Shown: in pieces, positions 5,830-10,766 of the stretch
Layout of the letters: every line of letters starts with the position of its first letter
How positions within the stretch are numbered: the first letter of the stretch is position 1
IMG/VR virus record: IMGVR_UViG_3300025168_000641
Coordinates: 1-24,517 of that record
Reading direction: 5' to 3' (one strand)
Origin: a virus
Length of the DNA stretch: 24,517 bases
Notes under the pieces: model-generated
Database searches by the model: none
What the model was told of the DNA's origin: nothing
Seen by the model: the letters and a program-made list of their open reading frames with translations, nothing else
Program-made: the position numbers and the translations under genes

Positions 5830-6672
5830 ATGTTAATCAGAAGTAGACAAACAGCTCATGAGTATGAGTGGTTAAGACCTTTAGAATTAAATAAAACTAA
5901 CTTTTGTTTTATAGGTTATGACCATAGAGAAGACATTGCATATAGAGTTTGTGAACATTCTTTATTAAGAAGAAGTTCACGACCCCTAACTGTAATTGAT
6001 TTAAATTATAAAGCATTAAGAGGTGCAGAATTATTCTCAAGAGAATGGACTGAAGACTCAGAAGGACAAAGAATGGATGTCATAGATGACAAGCCTTTCT
6101 CAACTGAGTTTAGTCATACTCGTTTCTTAGCACCTGAAATTGCTAGAGTAAATGATATAACTAAAGGTTGGATATTATTTTGTGACTGTGACTTTTTATT
6201 TTTAGAAGATGTAGATAAGTTATTTAAATTTGTTGAGACTACATATCCTAATCATGCTGCTGCTTGTGTTAAGTTTGATTGGCAACCTAAAGAATCTGAA
6301 AAGATGGATGGACAAAAACAGTTAGCATATGAAAAGAAACTATGGTCTTCTCTTATGTTAATTAATATGGGACATAAAGATACTAAAAAACTAACAACTG
6401 AATATGTTAATACAGCTAAAGGTTTAGACTTACATCAATTTAAATGGACAACTGATGACCAGATAGGAGCCATTCCTTCTTGTTGGAATTATATACCAGA
6501 TATAACTCCTATGTCTGAGTCACCTTCAGCTATACATTATTCATTAGGTGGTCCTTGGTTTGGTGGTAAGTTTGAGAACATGCAATTTGCACAAGACTGG
6601 CATGATGAAAGATTATTATATCAAACAACTATTCCTGGAAACATAGGAGATTGGGTAAGGTTAATGAGATGA
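5830..6672 (+). CDS. Glycosyltransferase, GT8-like (GT-A fold)
   Basis: A 280-residue predicted sugar transferase. The N-terminal strand FCFIGYDHRED (residues 25-35) is typical of the first nucleotide-sugar-binding strand. TKGWILFCDCDFLFLEDV carries the metal-binding DxD (Asp119-Cys-Asp121). WTTDDQIGAIP and SAIHYSLGGPWF (His236) resemble the closing His/Gly motif of GT8 enzymes. No membrane segment is visible, so it is likely cytosolic. It overlaps the next gene by four bases (ATGA) and so should be co-translated with the three-domain fusion. Donor and acceptor cannot be read from the sequence: phage DNA, virion protein or host surface glycan are all possible. The start at 5830 lies at the predicted transcription start. 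I see no better downstream start before the conserved part. Confidence 0.75.
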   Translation: MLIRSRQTAHEYEWLRPLELNKTNFCFIGYDHREDIAYRVCEHSLLRRSSRPLTVIDLNYKALRGAELFSREWTEDSEGQRMDVIDDKPFSTEFSHTRFLAPEIARVNDITKGWILFCDCDFLFLEDVDKLFKFVETTYPNHAAACVKFDWQPKESEKMDGQKQLAYEKKLWSSLMLINMGHKDTKKLTTEYVNTAKGLDLHQFKWTTDDQIGAIPSCWNYIPDITPMSESPSAIHYSLGGPWFGGKFENMQFAQDWHDERLLYQTTIPGNIGDWVRLMR

Positions 6673-8942
6673 GTAAAGACAATATAAATATTGTAACTTC
6701 TTTTAGTAAGAAAGGTTGGGCAACATATGGTAAACTTATGGTTGATTCTTGTGTTAAGTATTTATCAGATGACTTACATCTTACAGTTTTCTATCACGAC
6801 TTTGATGAAGAAACAATTAAAGAGTTTCCTAAAACTAATAAGATAACTTTTGAAAATTTAAATAGATGTACTGATATGATTCAGTATAGACAAGAGATGG
6901 TAAGGCATGATGGCACACAAGGTGGCAAGATGCCCTACAATTGGAGATTAGATGCCATTAAATGGTGTCACAAAGTGTATGCCTTAACTGACTTCTCCTT
7001 CAAGTTGGTTAAAGAAGGTGTGCAAGTAGGTTGGGTAGTATGGTTAGATGCTGACGTTATCCTGAAGAAACCTTTATCTAAGAAGGACTTGTTTAGAATT
7101 ATTCCCCTTGGTTCTGAGCTTGTCCATCTTGGTAGGAAAGATGTTGATTATAGTGAGACATCCTTCATGGCTTTTAATTTAAATACTACCCCACCTTTTG
7201 ATTTACTAGCAGACATGAGAGGAATATATAATAGTCATGAAGTTCTAGCTTATAGAGAATGGCATGATGGTTTTATATTTGAAAGATTATTTAATATTTA
7301 TGGAGCACATGGGTTAAAGAAGCATAGCTTAACACCAGAAGTAAATGGGTTAGATGCTTTTAATAACTCTCCTCTTACAGAATACTTAGAACATTATAAA
7401 GGCAATAGAAAACAGGAGCTATCAAATGAAACTACCCCTGATGTTACTGGTCCAAAGCGATACCAACAAATTGCTACAATTATCAGACACTATAAATTTT
7501 CAAGATTTCTTGAAACAGGTACATGGAATGGTGGTCGTGCAATTGAAATGGCATTGGCAGCTTTTGACAATGTAGATAAAGTACATTACAAAGGCTATGA
7601 TTTATTTGAAGATGCAGATGAGTTTACTGACAAGACTGAAATGAATACCAAGCCACATAATCTTTACAAAGCAGTAGAGAAAAGACTAAATGATTTTAAA
7701 GAACATGTTAAGAAAAACTTTAAAAAAGAATTTACTTTTGAATTAGTTAAAGGTAATACCAAAGAAACTTTAACTGAACAAAAAGATTTTGACTTAGCTT
7801 ACTTAGATGGTGGGCATAGTGAAGATACAGTACAACATGATTACAATATGACTAAGACATTTCCTATTGTAATCTTTGATGACTTCTTTACTAAAGATGT
7901 AGATGGAAAAGAAGTTGTTGAAGAACATCAAGGAACTAATAAAGTATTTAATGCCTTAGATAATAAGCTAAGAAGAAAAGTCTTACCTTCTCAAGACCCT
8001 GTTATGGGTGGAGGTATCACTCATCTAGGTGTTGTTATACATGATAACAAACTAGACGAACTACCATCAGTTCTAAAAGAAGTACCTATTATAGTTAAAC
8101 CTAAAGACTGTATGCCAGTAGATGACATCAGGAAAAACATTAAAGAAAATGTTAAGGCTATGAACTCATGGTTAGAAAAATGCAAACCTAATGGAGAGAC
8201 ATTAAATATTGTTTCAGGTGGTCCTTCTTTTCTAAAGCATATAGACTATTTAAAAGAAACTAAAGATAAAATAATATGTGTTAAACATTCCCTTCCTATG
8301 TTATTAGAACAGGGGATTATACCTTGGGGTTGTAACATACTTGACCCTAGACCTATTGAAGGAACAAGTACACATGGTATTGTACGTAAAGATTTATTTA
8401 AAGTTGTACCAAAAGAAACTAATTTCTTTGTATCATCTATGACAGATATATCTGTAATACAATTATTAAAAAAATCTAATGCAACTATAGTAGGTTGGAA
8501 TGCTTACTCAGATGCTATTGTTGAAAAAGAAAAAGATGGTAAGGTTGTCATCCCTAAAGAACTAGGCATACCACAGAATGCTACACTACTTACAGGTGGC
8601 ACATGTGCAGCTATGAGAGCCATTAGTGTAGGACATACATTAGGTTTTAGAAACTTTAATCTATTTGGATTTGATTGCTCAGTGCCTGAACCAAAAGACA
8701 AGACTGAAGTAGATGGTACAGGTAAACAAAAGTATCTACATGTAGTTACTAATGGTAAAAAGTTTTGGACTACTGGTGAACTATTGGCTATGGCACAAGA
8801 CGTAGAAAAATTATTACAAAGAACAGATGTAGATATGTACATGGAATTTTATGGAGAAGATACATTAGTTTCTGAGTTATGGAAATTACAACAACCACAA
8901 AGGCTACCTGATTATGGCACTACACTCAGCAGTAATACTTAA
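6669..8942 (+). CDS. Three-domain fusion: GT-A glycosyltransferase, SAM methyltransferase, MptE-like (DUF115)
   Basis: I start this 757-residue protein at ATG 6669, which overlaps the upstream stop as ATGA. An in-frame TTG at 6651 is less likely. Domain 1 (about 1-255): a GT-A glycosyltransferase starting INIVTSFSKKGW, with the DxD motif WLDADVIL (Asp127, Asp129). Domain 2 (about 265-475): a class I methyltransferase with FLETGTWNGG (Glu282, Gly284), GYDLFED and DLAYLDGGHSED (Asp380-His383), closest in style to the Methyltransf_24 group. Domain 3 (about 505-745): an MptE-like/DUF115 domain with IVSGGPSFL (Gly517-Ser520), LTGGTCAAMRA (642-651) and FGFDCS. DUF115 proteins include Maf factors for sugar transfer to flagellin. 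The fusion suggests one protein that builds and methylates a glycan. The target is unknown. Confidence 0.8.
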   Translation: MSKDNINIVTSFSKKGWATYGKLMVDSCVKYLSDDLHLTVFYHDFDEETIKEFPKTNKITFENLNRCTDMIQYRQEMVRHDGTQGGKMPYNWRLDAIKWCHKVYALTDFSFKLVKEGVQVGWVVWLDADVILKKPLSKKDLFRIIPLGSELVHLGRKDVDYSETSFMAFNLNTTPPFDLLADMRGIYNSHEVLAYREWHDGFIFERLFNIYGAHGLKKHSLTPEVNGLDAFNNSPLTEYLEHYKGNRKQELSNETTPDVTGPKRYQQIATIIRHYKFSRFLETGTWNGGRAIEMALAAFDNVDKVHYKGYDLFEDADEFTDKTEMNTKPHNLYKAVEKRLNDFKEHVKKNFKKEFTFELVKGNTKETLTEQKDFDLAYLDGGHSEDTVQHDYNMTKTFPIVIFDDFFTKDVDGKEVVEEHQGTNKVFNALDNKLRRKVLPSQDPVMGGGITHLGVVIHDNKLDELPSVLKEVPIIVKPKDCMPVDDIRKNIKENVKAMNSWLEKCKPNGETLNIVSGGPSFLKHIDYLKETKDKIICVKHSLPMLLEQGIIPWGCNILDPRPIEGTSTHGIVRKDLFKVVPKETNFFVSSMTDISVIQLLKKSNATIVGWNAYSDAIVEKEKDGKVVIPKELGIPQNATLLTGGTCAAMRAISVGHTLGFRNFNLFGFDCSVPEPKDKTEVDGTGKQKYLHVVTNGKKFWTTGELLAMAQDVEKLLQRTDVDMYMEFYGEDTLVSELWKLQQPQRLPDYGTTLSSNT

Positions 8943-9529: not shown

Positions 9530-9901
9530 ATGTTTTTAAATTTACTAGCACCTATACTAGGCAAGGTTCTTGATAGAGTAATACCTGACAAAGCTGGACA
9601 ACAAAAGGCTATGCAGGAATTAAACAAGGCACTTGTGACACACTCAGCAGATATTGAAAAAGCTGCTGCCTCTGTTGTCATTGCTGAAGCTAAAGGTGAG
9701 GGTTGGTTACAACGTAATTGGAGACCTTTAACAATGTTATCTTTTTTAGGATTGCTATTCTTATATTGGTTTGGGGTTCACCCTGAAAACTTATCTGACC
9801 AAGTGGTAATGAAACTGTTTGATTTACTACAGATTGGTATAGGTGGTTACATTATAAGTAGAGGTGCTGAGAAAGGTATTAAAACTTGGAAGGAAAAATA
9901 A
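9530..9901 (+). CDS. Holin, GTA_holin_3TM-like
   Basis: A 123-residue membrane protein resembling the 3-TM holins of gene transfer agents and alphaproteobacterial phages. These make holes in the inner membrane at the end of infection. It has an N-terminal hydrophobic helix (FLNLLAPILGKVLDRVIPD, 2-20), an amphipathic Ala/Glu-rich helix (about 23-55), the family hallmark WLQRNWRPLTML (59-70) leading into a membrane segment (67-84), and a second one at about 95-111 (LFDLLQIGIGGYIIS). It ends in basic KTWKEK. A strong Shine-Dalgarno precedes it. The PqqA gene begins two bases after its stop codon's first A, so they are likely co-expressed. No endolysin is in the window. Confidence 0.75.
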   Translation: MFLNLLAPILGKVLDRVIPDKAGQQKAMQELNKALVTHSADIEKAAASVVIAEAKGEGWLQRNWRPLTMLSFLGLLFLYWFGVHPENLSDQVVMKLFDLLQIGIGGYIISRGAEKGIKTWKEK

Positions 9902-9902
9902 T

Positions 9903-9983
9903 ATGAGTACATGGACACAACCAACTATCGCAGAAATATCTGTAGGTTTAGAAATTAATTCTTATGCTTGTGCTGAAAAGTAA
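9903..9983 (+). CDS. pqqA: PqqA-like precursor peptide of pyrroloquinoline quinone, 26 residues
   Basis: A 26-codon gene one base after the holin stop, with AAGGA about eight bases before ATG. The peptide matches PqqA position by position. Against the Methylorubrum extorquens peptide as I remember it, it shares Trp (4), Pro (7), Glu-Ile (11-12), Val-Gly (14-15), Glu17, Ser-Tyr (20-21) and Ala-Glu (24-25). Glu17 and Tyr21 have the obligatory E-x3-Y spacing: these two side chains are cross-linked by PqqE and become PQQ. PqqA is used up once per cofactor, carried by PqqD. No other pqq gene is in the window, so the host would provide PqqBCDE. A terminator hairpin follows 23 bases later. The match spans nearly the whole peptide, which makes chance unlikely, though its small size limits certainty. 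Confidence 0.85.
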   Translation: MSTWTQPTIAEISVGLEINSYACAEK

Positions 9984-10000
9984 ATAGTATAAAACAAACT

Positions 10001-10042
10001 AAAAAAAAACCCCTAGCTATTAAGTTAACTAGGGGTTTTTTT
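10001..10042. terminator. Two-way intrinsic terminator between converging transcripts
   Basis: Nine A (10001-10009), stem CCCCTAG (10010-10016), a 12-base loop, stem CTAGGGG (10029-10035) and seven T (10036-10042). A-T pairing extends the stem. The arrangement works on both strands. It lies 17 bases after pqqA and 23 bases after the end of iscU, so it ends both transcription units. Confidence 0.9.
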
Positions 10043-10065
10043 ATGTAAGCCTATATCACAGTTGG

Positions 10066-10446
10066 CTACTTATTCTTATCCTTATAATCTTTTACTGCTG
10101 CTTTGATTGCATCTTCAGCAAGAACAGAACAATGAATCTTAACTGGAGGTAAGGCTAGATGCTTTGCTATCTCAGTGTTCTTTATCTTATTAGCTTCATC
10201 TATGTTCTTTCCCTTAACCCATTCAGTTATTAGTGAGCTTGAAGCTATCGCTGACCCACATCCAAATGTTTTAAACTTAGCATCTTGAATAACACCTTCA
10301 TCACCTACCTTAATTTGTAGTTTCATTACATCACCACAGGCAGGAGCACCTACTAATCCAGTGCCTACCTCTGCAGAATCTTTATCCATTGAGCCTACAT
10401 TTCTAGGCTTTTCATAATGGTCTAATAGTTCTTTACTATATGTCAT
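10066..10446 (-). CDS. iscU: IscU, Fe-S cluster assembly scaffold
   Basis: A 126-residue protein very close to bacterial IscU over its whole length. Cluster ligands sit at the same numbers as in E. coli: Cys37 and Asp39 (GAPACGDVMKLQI), Cys63 (FKTFGCGSAIASSS), His105 and Cys106 (VKIHCSVLAEDAIKAA). The LPPVK motif (99-103), through which the HscA/HscB chaperones promote cluster release, is intact. It should build [2Fe-2S] clusters with sulfur from a host cysteine desulfurase (IscS), which is not encoded here. I start at ATG 10446 (MTYSKELLDHYEKP), which matches the family start. A reading nine codons longer runs into iscA. The start overlaps the iscA stop as ATGA, so the two are translationally coupled. 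Confidence 0.96.
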   Translation of the reverse strand: MTYSKELLDHYEKPRNVGSMDKDSAEVGTGLVGAPACGDVMKLQIKVGDEGVIQDAKFKTFGCGSAIASSSLITEWVKGKNIDEANKIKNTEIAKHLALPPVKIHCSVLAEDAIKAAVKDYKDKNK

Positions 10447-10766
10447 ACTCCAAAACTTTCTCCACATCCACAACTACTTGTTGCATTAGGATTTTGTAGT
10501 TCTAAAAAGCTACCAAATATTTGTTGTTTATATTCAATAGTCATGCCTGTTAAGTATAATAAGCTAGACCTATCAAGCAATAAAGTAAACCCATCAAAGT
10601 CAACATGCTCATCAGAGTCCTGTATTATATCATCAAATGACCAATCATATTTAAATCCAGCACAGCCACCACCCTTAACTTCAAGACGAACATATTTTTT
10701 ATTGTTGTCGCTAGTTAATTTATTTAAATGGTCTTTAGCTGCCTGTGTTAAATTAATTAAGTTCAT
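10443..10766 (-). CDS. iscA: A-type Fe-S carrier protein, IscA/ErpA-like
   Basis: A 107-residue A-type carrier that receives Fe-S clusters (or iron) and delivers them to target enzymes. The three ligand cysteines are present at the E. coli IscA positions: Cys35 in GGGCAGFKYDW, and Cys99 and Cys101 in SSCGCGESF. The opening NLTQAAKDHLNKL and DGFTLLLDRSSLLYLTGMTIEY are typical. Divergence from host proteins is greater than for IscU, with an Asn/Asp-rich N-terminus. It lies directly before iscU with a four-base overlap. No clear Shine-Dalgarno precedes ATG. IscA, ErpA and SufA are hard to tell apart by sequence; the pairing with IscU favours IscA. Confidence 0.9.
   Translation of the reverse strand: MNLINLTQAAKDHLNKLTSDNNKKYVRLEVKGGGCAGFKYDWSFDDIIQDSDEHVDFDGFTLLLDRSSLLYLTGMTIEYKQQIFGSFLELQNPNATSSCGCGESFGV

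Follow-up and report, generated by a model that had tools for sequence, protein, structure and literature searches.

The stretch of DNA analysed here (referred to as the window) is a virus record of 24,517 bases, in which an open reading frame that begins with ATG at 9903 and comprises 26 codons plus a stop follows directly on a holin gene (Table 1). The initial annotation had interpreted this frame as a phage-borne pqqA gene that has a good ribosome site, lies one base behind the holin stop and ends just ahead of a terminator, and all of these features are indeed present: the holin stop TAA occupies 9899-9901 and leaves 1 base before the start codon, the AAGGA of the ribosome site precedes the ATG by 8 nt, and a strong hairpin follows the end of pqqA after 19 bases. 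The region of this hairpin (9984-10045) folds with -19.4 kcal/mol (z = -4.1), and the hairpin is a probable two-way terminator that separates the converging gene arms, with an iscU-like and an iscA-like gene on the opposite side. The promoter scan revealed no conspicuous promoter dedicated to pqqA, and promoter-like matches occur at chance level. The frame thus has the layout expected for PqqA, a short peptide gene that stands on its own and is preceded by a ribosome site, and the pqqA gene is confirmed as real.

Table 1. Features at and around the pqqA locus of the window.
Feature	Position	Strand	Evidence
Holin gene directly 5' of pqqA	9530..9901	+	PF11351 (E 2.2e-8); phrog_3427 (E 3.8e-24)
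Ribosome site of pqqA, AAGGA, within the final holin codons	9890..9894	+	Sequence, relatives
pqqA, 26 codons, MSTWTQPTIAEISVGLEINSYACAEK, Glu17-x3-Tyr21	9903..9983	+	PF08042, TIGR02107, conserved place, purifying selection
Hairpin with A and T runs, probable two-way terminator	10003..10042	.	Terminator scan, folding
iscU-like Fe-S scaffold gene, across the terminator from pqqA	10066..10446	-	NifU_N (E 8.6e-53)
iscA-like Fe-S carrier gene, neighbour	10443..10766	-	Fe-S_biosyn (E 1.2e-19)

The peptide had been proposed to keep the PqqA pattern, and two profile models support this assignment. The Pfam PqqA model PF08042 is covered over its full length with an E-value of 2.4e-7 and 31.0 bits (curated cut-off 21.1), and the NCBIfam PqqA equivalog TIGR02107 gives 1.5e-8 and 34.3 bits (curated cut-off 20). 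A degenerate PqqA DNA motif has one match in the window and none in 100 shuffled versions. Searches with the 26-residue peptide by tblastn against annotated phages and by phmmer against the PDB gave no match, but with a query this short matches can escape, and these blanks therefore do not argue for absence. Apart from passing both cut-offs, the peptide resembles the family in its length, in the Trp-x2-Pro start and in the Gly-x-Glu-x3-Tyr core, of which Glu and Tyr are the residue pair that is joined into PQQ. The differences from the usual PqqA family concern the setting, as the gene is phage-encoded, lies behind a holin and has no adjoining pqq enzyme gene. An operon of pqqA with pqqBCDE, which is the usual arrangement and is absent here, is common but not required, and solitary pqqA copies are a normal feature of bacteria (PMC4109929).

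As the holin served as the sole query for fetching relatives from viral contigs, these were sampled without regard to pqqA. Among the 25 closest, which have 86-99% holin identity, a complete pqqA is found at the same place in 23; in another (L009) the contig end falls inside the gene, and only one (L005) is without it. Glu17 and Tyr21 are invariant in all 23 and in the window, and in these 24 complete lineage sequences codons 10-26, which include both residues, have a pN/pS of 0.063, indicating strong purifying selection. Within this part, residue 10 (Ala/Thr) is the sole variable position. Codons 1-9 are free to vary (pN/pS 1.02), and the holin has a value of 0.12. The three checks that had been suggested together with the initial annotation, i.e. 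a comparison with PqqA models, a search for the gene at the same place in related phages and an examination of selection on the peptide, thus all came out in favor of pqqA.

Relative L005 represents a natural empty site, in which the terminator lies close behind the holin stop and the AAGGA has become AAAGA through a synonymous lysine change. In the relatives that possess pqqA, the AAGGA with its lysine codon AAG is kept in 24 of 24, and AAG accounts for 150 of the 577 lysine codons in the main genes of the window. This retention where pqqA is present hints at an upkeep of the ribosome site, although the sequences share ancestry and the observation is therefore suggestive and no statistical test.

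Could the frame nevertheless be a passenger or a chance frame, or encode a small lysis-related peptide that is tied to the holin and has no role in connection with PQQ? Its location on the message of the holin and its length of merely 26 codons would agree with this, but the motif is absent from the shuffled sequences, two PqqA models score above their cut-offs, selection acts on the PqqA-specific residues, and in other phages (see below) the same peptide adjoins genes that are not holins. We consider such an origin hardly credible.

The window further encodes a DNA polymerase, a single-strand binding protein, an exonuclease, an endonuclease, a ribonucleotide reductase, and virion and DNA ejection proteins. 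As would be expected for a phage auxiliary metabolic gene, pqqA is flanked by phage genes, namely those for the polymerase, the reductase, the virion and ejection proteins, and the holin. The polymerase is 50-53% identical to those of the pelagiphages HTVC115P, HTVC103P and HTVC104P, and HTVC103P and HTVC115P share with the window the converging replication and structural arms. Unlike the window lineage, these three phages were isolated on SAR11, and in contrast to the window no pqqA is annotated in the genome stretches of HTVC103P and HTVC115P that were examined. Other phages have B12-dependent reductases with about 60% identity to that of the window, one structural protein shows 32-37% identity to its best full-length phage matches, and among annotated phages there is no near DNA match to the whole window. 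Terminase_6N was not found in the window, as expected for a fragment. On the plus strand, 6651-8942 encodes a 763-residue protein with methyltransferase-like and MptE-like stretches, and the adjoining 5830-6672 has a weak match to glycosyltransferase family 8.

With regard to the host, the last 16 residues of the phage PqqA (EISVGLEINSYACAEK) are identical to PqqA of HIMB59/AEGEAN-169 Alphaproteobacteria. Viral contigs and genomes were scanned for pqqA with degenerate DNA patterns that require the Glu and the Tyr, and the conservation of these two residues in the scans is therefore not counted as evidence. With the phage-like pattern, the genome matches listed include marine Alphaproteobacteria with an identical tail (EISVGLEINSYACAEK), single-cell genomes being frequent among them, and HIMB59-MED-G10 also belongs to these matches. 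In the family of genome G002, to which MED-G10 belongs, PqqA is present in 31 of 32 genomes with up to 5 copies each; in one context that is seen repeatedly, pqqA is followed by pqqB and pqqC, and further copies are solitary and lie in different surroundings. PqqE scores above the cut-off in four of the five HIMB59-family genomes tested. In G002, the gene for a full-length PQQ alcohol dehydrogenase is separated from pqqE by about 3.4 kb, and the closest PDB match of its relative in L324 is the lanthanide-dependent methanol dehydrogenase XoxF. The IscU of the phage shares 83-92% identity with HIMB59-family members and at most 85% with those of the other genomes tested. The PqqA tail and the IscU similarity both point to HIMB59/AEGEAN-169, neither of them being proof, and a marine alphaproteobacterium of this group is thus the likely host, as judged from two genes that may both be acquired. 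The tail together with the selection described above (pN/pS 0.063) also provides what an auxiliary metabolic gene should have, i.e. a homologue in the presumed host and selection in the phage. An origin from methylophages of marine OM43 bacteria was set aside as less probable, because the OM43-phage papers examined do not mention a phage pqqA and because the peptide tail matches HIMB59-type Alphaproteobacteria among the genomes listed. The HIMB59/AEGEAN-169 genome papers examined do not mention PQQ.

The pattern scan of viral contigs yielded at least 120 pqqA stretches. Among the viral matches listed (L082-L201), 20 of 120 are of the GLEIN(S/C)YACAE type and 100 of 120 of the G(F/M)E(V/I)T type, and the latter probably come from phages with other hosts. 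The GLEIN(S/C)YACAE type is spread over a minimum of four lineages of phages, of which the window represents one. In the second lineage, which is related to the first (L095, L146, L162, L196, L240), the polymerase is 44-45% and the reductase 55-60% identical to that of the window, and pqqA is located on the other arm; in the third (L203, L147), pqqA lies near the portal gene; and the fourth (L097, L403) consists of T4-like contigs in which pqqA adjoins iscU. As seen by eye, a GGAG-like ribosome site precedes most phage copies, and a hairpin follows several of them. In the core DNA of pqqA, the window agrees with the second lineage at 56-59 of 69 bases and with bacterial copies at up to 59 of 69 bases, and as it is no closer to that lineage than to bacteria, this fits separate acquisitions by the two lineages without proving them. 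Two members of these lineages are filed as metagenome bins, L240 as Flavobacteriaceae and L203 as Maricaulis, but L240 encodes a polymerase and a reductase that belong to a related phage, and L203 has a phage portal gene, so pqqA matches in such bins need to be checked before they are called bacterial. PqqE above the cut-off was found in none of 45 virus records, 44 of which contain pqqA; many of these records are fragments, which makes the absence weak for any single record, and the rest of the genome of the window phage, beyond this fragment, may hold further pqq genes.

PqqE is an Fe-S enzyme, and the phage iscU/iscA could thus help to mature the PqqE of the host while pqqA gives the substrate. 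Such a joint module would be in line with the placement of pqqA and iscU face to face across the terminator in the window, and with the two T4-like contigs, where pqqA is directly followed by iscU on the same strand (L097:4417-6333, L403:971-1512), but we regard it as unlikely. The iscU/iscA pair (window 10066-10766, minus strand) is found at the same spot in some relatives and is missing in others, independently of pqqA: six relatives (L006, L014, L020-L023) possess pqqA and show no iscU/iscA within the DNA fetched, L005 has iscU/iscA without pqqA, and among the 80 viral iscU loci listed, pqqA is nearby only at L097 and L403. The link between the two is therefore loose. In L097, an iscA gene and a SoxY-SoxZ fusion gene lie upstream, forming a small sulfur/cofactor cassette with pqqA-iscU.

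What would a phage gain from pqqA? One PqqA peptide is consumed per PQQ, and the occurrence of pqqA without PqqE suggests that the phage most likely tops up the sole consumable part of PQQ synthesis in the host. We therefore favor, at a probability of about 0.78, that the phage pqqA is a working copy that adds precursor peptide to the PQQ synthesis of the host and thereby feeds XoxF. In such a scheme, ribosomes would initiate on pqqA at its dedicated site near the end of the holin message, and the peptide would join the host PqqA pool as extra precursor. PqqD and PqqE of the host would then cross-link Glu17 to Tyr21 in this peptide, which they should accept because the tail is identical to that of the host-type PqqA, and a host protease, PqqB and PqqC would complete PQQ. 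The cofactor would be loaded onto the XoxF-type methanol dehydrogenase of the host, and a larger amount of active XoxF could increase the flow of electrons and carbon from alcohols while the infection lasts. Beyond the gene itself, this scheme is an inference from sequence, which applies to the translation of pqqA, the use of the peptide by host enzymes, the gain in PQQ and the benefit for the phage as well as to the identity of the host.

The opposite effect would result if the peptide acted as a decoy that binds to PqqD/PqqE of the host, blocks or diverts PQQ synthesis and lowers alcohol oxidation during infection. The binding partners would be the same for either direction of the effect. 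However, a decoy could lose the reactive Glu17 and Tyr21, which are needed for becoming PQQ rather than for binding alone, and neither is ever lost; moreover, over its 16 residues the tail is the same as that of the substrate made by the host itself. A decoy function thus appears quite improbable, and the supply of additional precursor remains our preferred interpretation. A multiplication of pqqA without the other pathway genes is also frequent in the chromosomes of bacteria that require PQQ, as Methylophilaceae have 3-12 pqqA copies and usually one set of the remaining pqq genes (PMC4109929). The extra orphan copies of Methylophilaceae and of the HIMB59-family genomes resemble the window pqqA in this respect and differ in being chromosomal. 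In a PQQ-producing methylotroph, two of five pqqA copies dominate expression (PMC9851590). Precursor supply need not limit PQQ, as in Gluconobacter overexpressed pqqB raised PQQ more than pqqA did, according to Wang et al. 2016 as cited in PMC7936290.

We see even odds that, in several marine phage lineages which are unrelated to one another, acquisition from the pathway was in each case limited to the PQQ precursor gene, and that the donors were hosts that likewise multiply only pqqA. If this is true, it would amount to a general strategy of phages, in which the stoichiometric substrate of a peptide-derived cofactor is replenished, and PQQ-dependent alcohol oxidation would be a need at the time of infection in the HIMB59/AEGEAN-169 clade. 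The phage pqqA suggests that PQQ and XoxF are of relevance in this marine group. With a gene of 26 codons that usual gene callers can skip, phages would be able to raise a host cofactor via its consumed ingredient alone. Precursor peptides may therefore be an overlooked class among phage metabolic genes, and this can be tested with existing PqqA assays.

The initial annotation had left room for an earlier report of phage pqqA in marine methylophages. A phage pqqA has indeed been published, albeit from freshwater, in the Lake Baikal phage population VP_266, a T4-like Methylophilaceae phage that also carries a methanol dehydrogenase (PMC7678222), whereas the assignment to marine methylophages is probably wrong for the window, for which HIMB59/AEGEAN-169 is indicated. 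In reservoir sediments, pqqA, pqqD and pqqE have been listed as virus-encoded genes (PMC13188868), and searches of open-licence papers yielded no additional report of phage pqqA. VP_266 is similar to the window in that its phage-borne pqqA was read as an auxiliary metabolic gene. In contrast to this T4-like freshwater phage of Methylophilaceae, the window lineage represents a different type of phage whose peptide is alphaproteobacterial, and none of its six records tested besides the window has a PQQ alcohol dehydrogenase. What is new relative to the known phage pqqA is therefore that it occurs in a different lineage of phages with a different probable host, and that the precursor gene is not accompanied by PqqE. 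The 72,356-base virus record L141 contains pqqA together with a PQQ alcohol dehydrogenase (G064:C1:34049-35731), as in the Lake Baikal phages.
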